Source: Xanthomonas rydalmerensis (lineage in GTDB: Bacteria > Pseudomonadota > Gammaproteobacteria > Xanthomonadales > Xanthomonadaceae). From it: a stretch of DNA of 64,000 nt. The notes beneath the pieces are model-generated. The model searched no databases, was not told the origin of the DNA, and worked only from the letters and a program-made list of their open reading frames with translations. A program made the position numbers and the translations under genes. The stretch covers positions 1,822,001 to 1,886,000 of the forward strand of contig NZ_CP126170.1 of assembly GCF_033170385.1 (NCBI RefSeq). The letters run 5' to 3'. Within the stretch, counting starts at the first letter, position 1, and the number at the start of each line of letters is the position of its first letter. Of this stretch, positions 48,670 to 54,941 are shown piece after piece.

Positions 48670-50052
48670 ATGGCCAGTCGACCCCGATCGCGCAAGCACA
48701 CCCCGGAACAGCAGGAAAGCTCGCTGCGGCGCTGGCTCAAGGAACGCCACATCACCGAGGTCGAGTGCCTGGTGCCGGACATCACCGGCAACGCCCGCGG
48801 CAAGATCATTCCCGCCGCCAAGTTCTCGCACGACTACGGCACGCGCCTGCCCGAGGGCATCTTCGCCACCACCGTCACCGGCGACTACCCGGACGACTAC
48901 TACGACCTGACCTCGCCCTCGGATTCGGACATGCAACTGCGCCCGGACCCGGACACGGTGCGGATGGTGCCGTGGGCCGCCGACCCCACCGCGCAGGTGA
49001 TCCACGATTGCTACACCAAGGAAGGCCAGCCGCACGAACTGGCGCCGCGCAACGTGCTGCGCGGGGTGCTGGCGGCGTATGCGGCGATCGGCTACAAGCC
49101 GGTGGTGGCGCCGGAGCTGGAGTTCTTCCTGGTGCAGAAGAACACCGACCCGGACTTCCCGTTGCTGCCGCCGGCCGGTCGCTCGGGCCGTCCGGAGACG
49201 GCGCGGCAGTCGTACTCGATCGACGCGGTCAACGAGTTCGACCCGATCCTGGACCTGATGTACGACTATTGCGACGCGATGGAACTGGACGTGGACACGC
49301 TGATCCACGAATCCGGCGCGGCGCAGCTGGAGGTCAACTTCACCCACGACGACGCGTTGTCGCGCGCCGACCAGGTGTTCCTGTTCAAGCGCACCATGCG
49401 CGAGGCGGCGCTGCGCCACGGCGTCTACGCGACCTTCCTGGCCAAGCCGATGGAGAACGAGCCGGGCAGCGCGATGCACATCCATCAGAGCCTGGTGGAC
49501 AAGCACGGCAAGAACGTCTTCAGCGGCCGCCGCGCCGGCGAGTACAGCCGCACCTTTGCGCATTACTTGGCCGGCCTGCAGAAGTACGTGCCGATGGCAA
49601 TGGCGGTGCTGGCGCCGAACGTCAATTCCTACCGCCGGCTGATGTTCGGCGAGGTGTCGCCGAGCAACGTGCTGTGGGGCTTCGACAACCGCACCTGCGG
49701 CCTGCGCGTGCCGATCGACACGATCGAGAACATGCGCGTGGAGAGCCGCTTCGCCGGTTCCGACGCCAACCCGTACTTGGCGATGGCGGCGACGCTGGCC
49801 TGTGGCCTGCTGGGCATCCGCGAGAAGCTGGAGCCGACCGCGCCGATCAGCGGCAACGGCAAGGAGTTGGGCTATCAGTTGCCGCGCTCGCTGGGCGAGG
49901 CGCTGGACGAGTTGGAGCGGTGTGCGCCGTTGCAGGAGTTGCTGGGGCCGCGCTTCGTGCGGGCGTACATTTCGGTCAAGCGCAAGGAGTACGAGACGTT
50001 CTTCCGGGTGATCAGTTCGTGGGAGCGGGAGTTTTTGTTGTTGAACGTGTGA
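48670..50052 (+). CDS. Second gamma-glutamylpolyamine synthetase-like protein
   Basis: A 460-residue glutamine-synthetase-family enzyme, paralogous to but well diverged from the one at 46263-47642. Key regions: VECLVPDITGNARGKI at the N-terminal domain, APELEFFLV, AQLEVNFTHDDAL, FLAKPMENEPGSAMHIHQSL, and NRTCGLRVPIDTIENMRVESR. The ATG at 48670 lies five bases after puuD. Possible roles are a different polyamine (spermidine, cadaverine) or a different induction condition; sequence cannot decide. A 918-base repeat-rich gap follows. Confidence 0.9.
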   Translation: MASRPRSRKHTPEQQESSLRRWLKERHITEVECLVPDITGNARGKIIPAAKFSHDYGTRLPEGIFATTVTGDYPDDYYDLTSPSDSDMQLRPDPDTVRMVPWAADPTAQVIHDCYTKEGQPHELAPRNVLRGVLAAYAAIGYKPVVAPELEFFLVQKNTDPDFPLLPPAGRSGRPETARQSYSIDAVNEFDPILDLMYDYCDAMELDVDTLIHESGAAQLEVNFTHDDALSRADQVFLFKRTMREAALRHGVYATFLAKPMENEPGSAMHIHQSLVDKHGKNVFSGRRAGEYSRTFAHYLAGLQKYVPMAMAVLAPNVNSYRRLMFGEVSPSNVLWGFDNRTCGLRVPIDTIENMRVESRFAGSDANPYLAMAATLACGLLGIREKLEPTAPISGNGKELGYQLPRSLGEALDELERCAPLQELLGPRFVRAYISVKRKEYETFFRVISSWEREFLLLNV

Positions 50053-50099
50053 GCTGCTTGCGGACGCTCTGGTTGGGCTGCTTCAGGCTTGTTCGTACT

Positions 50100-50184
50100 C
50101 ATCGTCGGTGCTTCGGCTTCGGCTTCGGCTCGGCTTCGGCTTACGCTTCCGCTGTTGCTTCGGCTGTTGTCTTTGGCTTTTGAT
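50100..50184. repeat. Imperfect hexanucleotide tract (left flank of structured element)
   Basis: About 85 bases of GGCTTC-type hexamers (on the minus strand GAAGCC, shifting to AACAGC). It abuts the TTACCGGG edge of the left structured element. Confidence 0.8.
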
Positions 50185-50421
50185 TTACCGGGTTCCCTTC
50201 CGAAGCGGCGAACCAGACGGGAAAAACCCGAAGGGCGGCGCACAGGGACGTGCGCCGTCCGCGGCAGGGGCAGGATGCCCCTTCCGCGGATCCCGTCTGG
50301 TTCGCGGACCCGGAGCGCGCAGCGCGGAGGGCGCGTAGGCAGGGCGCGCTTTCTTTTGGTTACCTTTTCTTTGCGCGAGCAAAGAAAAGTAACTCGCCCG
50401 CAAGGGCGAAAGCCTTTGCTG
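50185..50421 (-). repeat. Structured repeat element, left copy
   Basis: About 237 bases. Stem I, 15 bp: 50208-50222 with 50291-50305. It encloses a small CCC-GAA-GGG hairpin (50227-50235), stem II of 8 bp (50236-50243 with 50250-50257) and stem III of 7+6 bp (50258-50264/50284-50290 and 50267-50272/50276-50281). Stems II, III and I abut without gaps, giving a compact junction. Further on are an 11-bp hairpin CTTTTCTTTGC at 50364-50389 and a TCGCCC hairpin near 50394-50408. The strand is arbitrary; it is set so that the hexamer tract follows the element. Confidence 0.85.
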
Positions 50422-50454
50422 TTGCTTCAGGCTTGAGTGTCGGATGAGAAAGAC

Positions 50455-50522
50455 TGTAGGAGCGGCTTTAGCCGCGACCAACGTAATTGGTCATACCTGT
50501 CGCGGCTGAAGCCGCTCCTACA
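50455..50522. repeat. Family A palindrome at the centre of the structured pair
   Basis: TGTAGGAGCGGCTTTAGCC and its complement flank a short centre containing ACCAACGTAATTGGTCA. It sits midway between the two inverted structured elements. Confidence 0.88.
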
Positions 50523-50550
50523 ATCCAGCGGCGCCGCCGCATCAGCTAGA

Positions 50551-50818
50551 GCAAGAGCAAAGCTTTCGCCTGGCGGCGAGTCACTTTTCTTTGCTTGTGC
50601 AAAGAAAAGTAACCAAAAGAAGCGCTTTACCACAGCCGAAGGCTGGTCAAGCACACCCTGCCTCGCGCCCTCCGCGCTAACGCGCTCCGGGTCCGCGTCC
50701 ACCCCGGGGATTCGCGGAAGGGGCATCCTGCCCCTGCCGCGAACGGCGCACGTCCCTGTGCGCCGCCCCTTCGGGGTTTTTCCCCGGGCCGGCCGCCGCT
50801 TCGGAAGGGAACCCGGTA
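50551..50818 (+). repeat. Structured repeat element, right copy (inverted)
   Basis: Inverse of the left copy with diverged sequence but the same stems: stem I 50703-50710 with 50781-50788; CCCC-TTC-GGGG 50767-50776; stem II 50744-50751 with 50758-50765; stem III 50711-50717 with 50737-50743 and 50720-50725 with 50729-50734; hairpin CTTTTCTTTGC 50584-50609; TCGCC hairpin 50566-50579. Several differences from the left copy are paired changes that keep base pairing. Confidence 0.85.
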
Positions 50819-50934
50819 AGGCAAGGGCAACAGCGAGAGCAACGGCAACAACAAGAGCGCCAGCAACAGCAAGAGCAACGGCAACAACAAGTGCACCAAC
50901 AACAGCAACAGCAACAGCAACAGCAAAGCTTGGT
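50819..50934. repeat. Imperfect AACAGC/GCAACG microsatellite (right flank)
   Basis: About 115 bases of drifting GCAACA, GCAAGA and AACAGC hexamers directly after the GGTAA edge of the right structured element, ending 37 bases before the aminotransferase ATG. Copy number is likely to vary between strains. Confidence 0.85.
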
Positions 50935-50970
50935 CGCGGCGGCGGCCTTGGCACCGACATTGGAGTGGAC

Positions 50971-53548: not shown

Positions 53549-53969
53549 GCCGCTGGCGTTCGCGGTCCGGGTAACGCTTTGCGGTTTGACCCGGACAGCT
53601 ATCGCACTGCGCTTGCCCAAGCGACCAGGGTGAGGGTAAGAGGCTGTTGTGGGAGGGACATCAGTCCCGACGCCATGCCGCCCGGGACATCTGGCGTCTT
53701 CGCTCGTCGCGGCTGAAGCCGCTCCTTGTATCTGGACCTGGCGCCCCTAAACAGGCGTCATGTCTTCCGACTGATCATCGGAGGAGGTGTGGGAAGTCCA
53801 GTCGCTCCTGAAGCTTAGAGCTTGCATCGTAGATCGGCTCCCCTCTCCACATGCTGGCCCTTGGGTGTCCGAACGGTATCCAGAGTCCGCCCCCGGCGTG
53901 AACTCGCATCGACAAGGCAGGACCGGGCACAGCGCCGATCATGACCCTGACACGATGGAGGAATCGCGT
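53549..53969. other. Spacer with hairpin, repeat remnants and left end of an IS110 element
   Basis: At 53565-53596 an 8-bp GTCCGGGT stem 17 bases after potF may end its transcript, though no T run follows. Degenerate family A copies occupy about 53645-53732. From about 53736 to 53969 the sequence is probably the non-coding left end of the IS110 element, where related elements encode their bridge RNA; a TCCGA/TCGGA hairpin is seen near 53768-53783. The outer boundary of the element cannot be fixed by eye. Confidence 0.55.
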
Positions 53970-54941
53970 ATGTCTCCCGTCATCGGCATCGACGTCGCCA
54001 AGCGCAGTTTCGATGTGGCCAGCGAGCTGACCAATGGCAAGCACCGTACCAAGGCCAAGTTGTCCAACGATGCCAAGGGCTTCCAGGCCCTGCAGGCATG
54101 GCTGCAGACCCATGCGCAGCCCGATAGCTGGATCGCCATGGAGGCCACTGGCACCTACCACCAGGCACTGGCCGAGTTCCTCCACGCACGAGGCTATCGG
54201 GTGTGCGTGCTCAACCCGGCGCAGACGGCCGCGTATGCACGCAGCCAGCTCAGCCGGGTCAAGACCGATCGCAGCGATGCCAAGCTGATCGCCAGCTATG
54301 CCCTGCGTCACCGCGAGCAGTTACGCCGTTGGCACCCTGATCCGCCGGCGCTCAAGCAACTCAAGGCACTGGTGCGCCGGCGCCAGGACTTGCAACAGAT
54401 GCTGCAGATGGAGCGCAACCGGCTGGACGTCGCTCCGGCCCAGGTGAAGGACTCGATCCAGGTCCATCTGGCCGATCTGCAACATCACATCGCCCAGATC
54501 GAGCAGGCCATCGATGACCATATCGACCAGGATCCGACCTTGCGGGGGCAGCGCGAGTTACTGGTGAGCATCCAGGGCATCGCCGACACCAGTGCGGCCT
54601 TGATGCTGGCCGAGCTTGGCGATGTGAGGCGCTTTGCCGATGCCTCGGCGGTGACCGCCTTCGCCGGCCTGAATCCGTGCCTGCAGGAGTCGGGCGACCG
54701 CAAAGGCCATGTCTGCATCTCGCGCACCGGCTCGCCCCGCCTGCGCGCGGGCCTGTTCATGCCGGCCCTGGTGGCCATGACCCACAACCCGGTCATCCGG
54801 GCGCTGAAACAGCGGCTAAGCGAACGCGGCAAAGCCGGCAAGCAGATCGTGTGCGCCGCTATGCGCAAGCTCCTGCACCTCGCCTATGGCGTCCTCAAAT
54901 CGGGCACCGCGTTCGACCCGAAAAGGAGCCTTGCCTGCTAG
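53970..54941 (+). mobile_element. IS110 family transposase (insertion sequence)
   Basis: A 323-residue, apparently intact IS110-type recombinase. The RuvC-like DEDD residues fit Asp8 (GIDVAK), Glu58 (MEATGTY), Asp100 and Asp103 (KTDRSDAKL). The C-terminal Transposase_20 region starts LLVSIQGIADTSAALMLAEL and carries the serine motif SRTGSPRLR (251-259). GGAGG precedes the ATG at 53970 by eight bases. The long non-coding part is upstream, as in the IS110 rather than the IS1111 group. Inverted ends are not expected for the group. It lies between potF and the efflux operon and interrupts no gene I can see. Confidence 0.94.

Follow-up and report, generated by a model that had tools for sequence, protein, structure and literature searches.

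An inverted pair of structured repeats in Xanthomonas rydalmerensis represents a widespread, covarying element of Xanthomonadales with loops of CsrA/RsmA type and sequence kinship to TwoAYGGAY

The stretch of 64,000 nucleotides of Xanthomonas rydalmerensis analysed here (the window; the host genome is a single 5.04-Mb contig) contains a pair of elements for which the original prediction knew no named family. What are these elements, and is their fold under selection? Both units are present as predicted, unit A on the + strand (50185-50409) and unit B on the − strand (50566-50819), in mutual inverted orientation. Their folds beat those of dinucleotide shuffles (z −7.7 for A and −6.4 for B), and none of 200 shuffles equals either of them. 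A and B align over almost their full length, but B has an extra hairpin (50622-50649) without counterpart in A. The upstream neighbour is a glutamine-synthetase-like gene that ends at 50052 and whose best NCBIfam matches, the glutamate--ammonia ligase and gamma-glutamylputrescine synthetase models, are both below cutoff. The downstream neighbour is an aminotransferase gene from 50971 (PRK07480, above cutoff), followed by a PotF-like gene (below cutoff). These gene identities place the units inside a putrescine-type catabolic region. An IS110-family transposase gene lies downstream of the PotF-like gene (53787-54941; NCBIfam NF033542, 237.6 bits). Degenerate GCTGTTGCT / GCAACAGCAAC trimer tracts stand beside the units (50090-50180 and 50820-50935), and like tracts border many inspected copies. 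No sigma-70-like promoter was found in 50053-50970.

Unit A consists of a core, a third hairpin, a pseudoknot-like tail and a TCGCCC hairpin. Its core (50185-50313, contig 1872185-1872313) scores 145.7 bits with model R1, a covariance model of the core built from 18 own-genome copies; the core of B on the − strand (50687-50819, contig 1872687-1872819) scores 144.4 bits. On the + strand of A, stem I (50209-50222 with 50291-50304) encloses the mini-hairpin CCC-GAA-GGG (50227-50235), stem II (50236-50257) and stem III (50258-50290). The loop of stem II is AGGGAC (50244-50249) and that of stem III AGGAT (50272-50276), both closed by a C-G pair (CANGGANG and CAGGATG, respectively). In B the stem II loop CANGGANG is at 50751-50758 on the − strand. 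The stems and the mini-hairpin had all been recognised in the original prediction, and the four paired differences that it listed between the copies, in stem I, stem III, the mini-hairpin and the junction hairpin, are real on alignment of A with B. It is important to note that the arms of A and B are complementary at 83% over 90 nt, so that one unit could pair with the other and silence it.

Copies of the element are numerous. BLAST in the own genome gives 59 matching pieces, and R1 finds 26 copies there, 25 of them with the tail pattern and at least five with an insertion of ~92 nt in the stem III loop. R1 also matches in 20 out of 20 genomes of the genus (2-28 copies each), in 96 out of 198 genomes of the family (39 of the 54 genera sampled) and in 45 out of 200 genomes of the order (21 of 69 genera, other families among them). 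Model R2, built from 96 matches (genus, family and f12 copies, none from family f7), gives matches in 35 of 369 genomes of the class (30 of 272 genera) and 14 of 398 genomes of the phylum. The spread beyond the family is thinner and goes to other Gammaproteobacteria. An exact-pattern scan of named genomes found at least 116 stretches; among the matches listed are Xanthomonas, Lysobacter, Luteimonas, Pseudoxanthomonas, Stenotrophomonas, [Pseudomonas] boreopolis, Lysobacteraceae and one gammaproteobacterial MAG. Judged by a crude codon score, the units are intergenic. Where ORFs are called into units (L007, L020, L021, L050), the stretch within the unit has negative codon scores, and a more favourable start is available outside it or right at its edge.

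Compensatory changes had been taken to imply selection on a folded RNA or single-stranded DNA. In the 18 own-genome cores both sides are changed in 19 of 42 pairs. The wider alignment comprises 96 matches from 60 loci (93 distinct) in 19 other genomes of the genus and in other genera of the family and the order. In it 95.0% of cells are paired, 37 of the 42 pairs have double changes, and double-change cells number 791, as compared to 222 ± 17 after shuffling and 84-122 with the partners slid. A distant set of 22 rows (A4) is 88.6% paired, with 39 of 42 pairs doubly changed and 250 double-change cells (control 81 ± 7). As all these alignments were fitted to the covariance model, they lean towards its structure. 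Covariation was also compared with a phylogeny-aware null, an R-scape-like script of our own in which Fitch substitutions on a FastTree tree are redistributed within branches (150 null alignments, G statistic with product correction, 107 of 149 rows). Thirty-two column pairs are significant, and 29 of them belong to the structure, i.e. 29 of the 42 helix pairs. The 13 structure pairs without significance are in the outer helix, the mini-hairpin, the loop-closing pairs and stem I (four pairs), several of them nearly invariant. Double changes and covariation above phylogenetic expectation thus bear out selection on a folded nucleic acid. The element is under selection and unannotated.

Regarding the choice between RNA and single-stranded DNA, alignment A3 has 125 G-U against 30 A-C cells (outer helix 47:1, stem I 69:28, stem II 2:0, stem III 7:1). 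This excess, together with the parallel-strand covariation of the tail described below, favours RNA of the element's own strand and narrows the original alternative. A5 has 119 G-U and 62 A-C contexts; in A4 the relation is reversed (28 A-C and 19 G-U contexts). Stems II and III are nearly all Watson-Crick, with 9 G-U in 2041 cells, a share that we judge to be low for RNA. RNA nature of the element is likely.

A separate 11-bp hairpin had been predicted. The hairpin exists, but it is not separate: with a third strand and a loop pairing it belongs to the pseudoknot-like tail. In A (+ strand) the tail spans S1a to the 3' hairpin arm (50344-50393). S1a, GCGCGC (50344-50349), pairs with the loop of the tail hairpin; it is followed by the pyrimidine third strand TTTCTTTT (50350-50357) and the hairpin arms (50359-50373, with one C bulged, and 50380-50393). 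The tail of B (50581-50656, − strand) has the extra hairpin between S1a and the third strand. The TCGCCC hairpin (50394-50409) closes unit A and a TCGCC hairpin (50566-50579, − strand) closes unit B. In the collected copies the upstream strand, hairpin and loop of the tail vary in concert. Purine tracts such as AAAGAAAA, AAAAGAAA, AAAGAGAA, AAAAGAGAA, AAAGGAGAA and AAGAGAAA, among others, have parallel complements on their 5' side (TTTCTTTT, TTTTCTTT, TTTCTCTT, TTTTCTCTT, TTTCCTCTT, TTCTCTTT). In asymmetric tails the third strand fully matches the purine arm in parallel in 83 of 98 cases and in antiparallel in 10 of 98, while shuffled upstream strands give a mean of 35.2 parallel matches and a maximum of 45. 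Without the commonest tract the values are 40 of 45 and 5 of 45, with a shuffled mean of 12.2 and a maximum of 21. Between the loop and S1, the segment 5' of the third strand, the longest Watson-Crick run has a mean length of 4.37 over 67 distinct combinations; the shuffled control has a mean of 3.00 and a maximum of 3.28. Only 2-3 loop-S1 pairs are found in 16 of 115 tails, several with an extra hairpin among them, and the loop-S1 rule is therefore not universal. In an independent sample anchored on the tail the loop pairing is legible by eye in most members (TATCC/GGATA, TCGCC/GGCGA, CGGCC/GGCCG, CAGC/GCTG).

Given this covariation, the tail is a putative triple-helix pseudoknot. The pseudoknot of telomerase RNA is of the H type, with a major-groove triple helix. 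The tail has the same order of strands, S1a-L1-S2a-S1b-S2b, and its L1, a pyrimidine strand, runs parallel to the purines of S2b; the resemblance is topological alone, we claim no kinship, and the triple helix of the tail is deduced from covariation.

Tails also occur under other heads. Among 22 distinct tails outside the own genome, a GGA hairpin (stem of at least 5) lies upstream of 6, and two or more such hairpins upstream of 4; R2 matches a core at E<=0.001 in 7 of 18 tail loci. Nine out of 12 inspected tail loci have another head, a hairpin that ends in TGAGCGCAGCGAGTT or a related sequence, and their frame is mostly shared (CCGAGCATCGCAG...GAGAAGCGCAGGG or close). Such another head (hairpin end TGTYTGAGCGCAGCGAGTT or relative), with a similar frame and the same tail, is seen in L325, L326, L328, L330, L333, L335, L338, L342 and L344. 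No Rfam family was found for the TGAGCGCAGCGAGTT-type head. The few GGA heads and the TGAGCGCAGCGAGTT heads indicate that no fixed link ties frame and tail to CsrA; both may act in their own right, a CsrA-type head being one option.

The loops of stems II and III are constant to a degree that the stems are not. GGA is in the loop of stem II in 91 and in that of stem III in 91 of 96 matches; 86 matches have it in both loops and all 96 in one or both. Stem II, by contrast, occurs in 26 and stem III in 20 different sequences. The commonest loops are CATGGATG in stem II (46 of 96) and CAGGATG in stem III (51 of 96); since the search models include GGA loops, this constancy is partly due to search selection. 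In 122 distinct elements C-A(N)GGAN-G hairpins number 226 in sense and 2 in antisense, with none in 4 elements, one in 25, two in 83, three in 5 and four in 5. The five four-hairpin members (L095, L108, L109, L114, L115) carry CAGGATG, CAGGAAG or CAGGGATG as loops of their third and fourth hairpins, which lie outside the model. The 26 own copies have two GGA hairpins in 20 cases and one in 6. Among C-G-closed hairpins with loops of 5-6 nt, 226 of 334 are of the motif type in the elements, while outside them the window has 5 among 970. The string CANGGANG by itself occurs 35 times in the window, where 41 are expected, and so is not enriched; the enrichment exists only in hairpin context. Consensuses given for RsmE/CsrA are A/U-CANGGANG-U/A and RUACARGGAUGU, and CATGGATG is described as functional in P. 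putida cfcR (PMC6849547); for RsmA a Xanthomonas paper gives ACARGGAUG (PMC3937308). In their letters, the stem II and III loops fit the CsrA/RsmA-site consensus C-A(N)GGAN-G. A single copy of csrA is present in each of the 20 genomes of the genus.

That no named family was known for the element is correct for Rfam at cutoffs, where nothing is found in the window, but TwoAYGGAY (RF01731) is a real relative, seen through other copies. In the window RF01731 has no match at E<=5 (cutoff 43 bits), and strict filters list none in the own genome and two other genomes of the genus. Low-scoring Rfam matches in the window at E<=5, for instance to microRNA models, were taken as chance. At or above cutoff, RF01731 is present in 8 of 151 genomes of the order, in some of them in several copies with neighbours oppositely oriented. 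On relatives it scores just below cutoff at L276 (40.6 bits), L278 (39.0) and L104 (38.8) and above cutoff at L322 (46.1) and L340 (54.1), the last lying ~25 nt upstream of the element's tail. In turn R2, with no family f7 copies in it, matches the RF01731 places at L312, L314, L315 and L340 (E 1e-6 to 3e-4) and at L313 another place only. These reciprocal matches argue for common descent of the element with above-cutoff TwoAYGGAY members. The TwoAYGGAY member at L314 (family f7) is inside a very long perfect inverted repeat (ACACGGTGGGCGCTTATGGATTGT and its complement), and a C4 antisense RNA (71.4 bits) lies near an element-like match at L319 (2367-2452).

The element and TwoAYGGAY both have a closing stem and two adjacent hairpins, in TwoAYGGAY with A-Y-GGA-Y loops closed by C-G, and in genomes of family f7 TwoAYGGAY also occurs in several copies per genome, some close together in opposite orientation. 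The loop letters are shared in part, as the window has AGGGAC and AGGAT rather than strict AYGGAY. The Xanthomonadales form differs by its mini-hairpin, its pseudoknot-like tail and its 26-28 copies, and some members also have extra GGA hairpins (a third and a fourth) or an insertion in a loop; four inspected above-cutoff TwoAYGGAY loci of family f7 are without tail by eye. TwoAYGGAY was listed in 2010 from human gut, gamma-Proteobacteria and Clostridiales (PMC2864571) and predicted in 2014 as a CsrA binder with validation pending (PMC4333381). Among the papers listed as naming TwoAYGGAY, titles and abstract openings mention no functional test of it, a paper on the present repeat was not noticed in the open-access literature, and a literature search with sequence letters gave unrelated virus papers only. 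Rfam clan CL00106 contains TwoAYGGAY and RsmW. CsrB, RsmX, RsmY, RsmZ and RsmW, as these families are generally known, likewise have several one-strand GGA-loop hairpins fitting CANGGANG, but none of them matched in the window, and the element consists of dispersed, often paired repeats without a promoter seen rather than one or a few sRNA genes. RsmU of Xanthomonas campestris is also described as a candidate RsmA-sequestering RNA with GGA motifs; it differs in length, 77 nt with a longer isoform besides, and in its origin from the 3' UTR of a single gene, a comparison by description only (PMC7694677). GTAG REP/REPIN sequences are extragenic, paired and palindromic as well, but the element is much longer and more complex.

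Based on these results, the element is best read as a CsrA/RsmA-binding structured RNA, the putative Xanthomonadales branch of a TwoAYGGAY superfamily, a reading to which we give a probability of about 0.55. The reported absence of rsmB homologues from Xanthomonas (PMC3937308, PMC7831014) makes such an RNA the best reading. Each unit would be the gene, or a module, of a structured RNA some 225-255 nt long. The core would show two adjacent hairpins with loops as CsrA/RsmA recognition sites (C-ANGGAN-G). The tail would form an H-type pseudoknot with the pyrimidine strand in the major groove of the hairpin, in U.A-U and C+.G-C triples, and would probably shield the RNA from nucleases. With inverted pairing, transcription from either side would read one unit in sense, and RNA from the scattered copies may bind and titrate CsrA/RsmA. 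CsrA binding by the element is plausible. Counting against this reading are the lack of a sigma-70-like promoter, the near-pure Watson-Crick pairing of stems II and III, the reversal in A4, the 6 of 26 own copies with a single GGA hairpin, the GGA heads on few tails (6 of 22), the A/B arm complementarity and the GGA loops built into the search models. More tentatively, the element may belong to a modular class of bacterial RNAs with a common frame, exchangeable heads (paired CsrA-site hairpins in one branch, TGAGCGCAGCGAGTT in another), a triple-helix tail, inverted pairs and dozens of copies; in Xanthomonadales this class would provide the RsmA-titrating RNA that is reported missing.

Dispersal over the genome also suits a non-autonomous mobile DNA element. 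Its hairpins, folded in single-stranded DNA, would serve as recognition sites of an enzyme from elsewhere; this enzyme would touch the GGA loops, and the inverted pairs would result from copying. Strict Watson-Crick pairing in stems II and III fits this view, and among 65 cases of neighbouring units 60 are inverted, 34 of them convergently and 26 divergently (some pairs being orthologous and thus not all independent); a further 61 loci have one unit only. Six other own sites are filled, at most of them, in only some relatives (3/5, 3/5, 3/5, 3/4, 3/5 and 5/5). However, the window site is old in the genus. Among 20 genomes, 13 have both units at the site, 2 have a collapsed pair, 2 are cut by a contig end and 3 lack the units. 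In these 3 the next gene is missing beside the site or matches only 95 bases (L260); the 15 genomes with both the gene end and the next gene at the site are those with both units or the collapsed pair. The collapsed pairs (L242, L247) consist of unit positions 1-76 forward and back, with the inner parts gone. A GTAG-type REP inverted repeat between the units (50452-50526) is outside the element; of the 13 orthologous sites that have both units, 6 gave no match to it, and so it arrived later than they did, as a separate insertion. Target duplication was not noticed at two sites read by eye, where the intergenic sequence is too diverged to tell, and in one of two empty-site comparisons the next gene is also different in the empty genomes. 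There is no fixed outer end, because both pair orientations occur, and the G-U excess over A-C in A3 speaks against a DNA element as well. The collection viral_contigs has no exact core or tail match, patterns that would miss divergent copies, and a phage origin was dropped on this ground. Taken together, a mobile DNA element is possible but unlikely.

Still less probable is a 3'-end element, a terminator or RNA-stability module whose hairpins and tail end or protect neighbouring transcripts, the inverted pair serving both directions. The intergenic position would suit it, as would a terminator-like match, GGAGGGCGCG...CGCGC-TTTCTTTT at 50326-50354; the region has 4 such matches, shuffled sequence 1.8 ± 1.3. 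So would the tail module on a Burkholderia cepacia plasmid (L324, 1501-1573), which stands by itself between lpdA and aceF; there the plasmid matches are to the tail and no core was found. On the other hand, 7 single units between co-directional genes are 2 in sense and 5 in antisense. Unit direction is thus unlinked to gene direction (gene calls read by eye), and the operon-internal attenuator of the original prediction was dropped as unsupported. Constant CANGGANG loops would be unneeded in a 3'-end element, and S1 covaries with the downstream loop, a result that does not cover an alternative pairing of S1a with the upstream stem.

Template switching yields inverted, not parallel, complements, so a functionless repeat with compensatory changes from template switching in palindromes and gene conversion between copies, for which near-perfect stems II and III and an apparently exchanged core would speak, is very improbable in view of the parallel tracking of the purine arm in 40 of the 45 rarer asymmetric tails (antiparallel 5 of 45), of loops that are constant while stems differ and of the G-U over A-C excess in A3. 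The exchanged core is seen by eye at one orthologous site (L280 against L281; genomes G011 and G009), where the whole core is swapped between alike flanking stem I strands; this suggests gene conversion, and copies seem to exchange modules.

By its sequence the element is a much amplified, unrecognised relative of a known, unexplained RNA family, and TwoAYGGAY gains a large covarying alignment. With its tail a bacterial repeat offers a natural case in which covariation backs a candidate triple-helix pseudoknot. Xanthomonads have RsmA/CsrA as a global regulator, yet an RsmB-type antagonist is reported missing from them (PMC3937308, PMC7831014). An order-wide, unannotated candidate RNA with conserved CsrA-type sites makes this gap directly testable, and copy number itself might set the titrating capacity.
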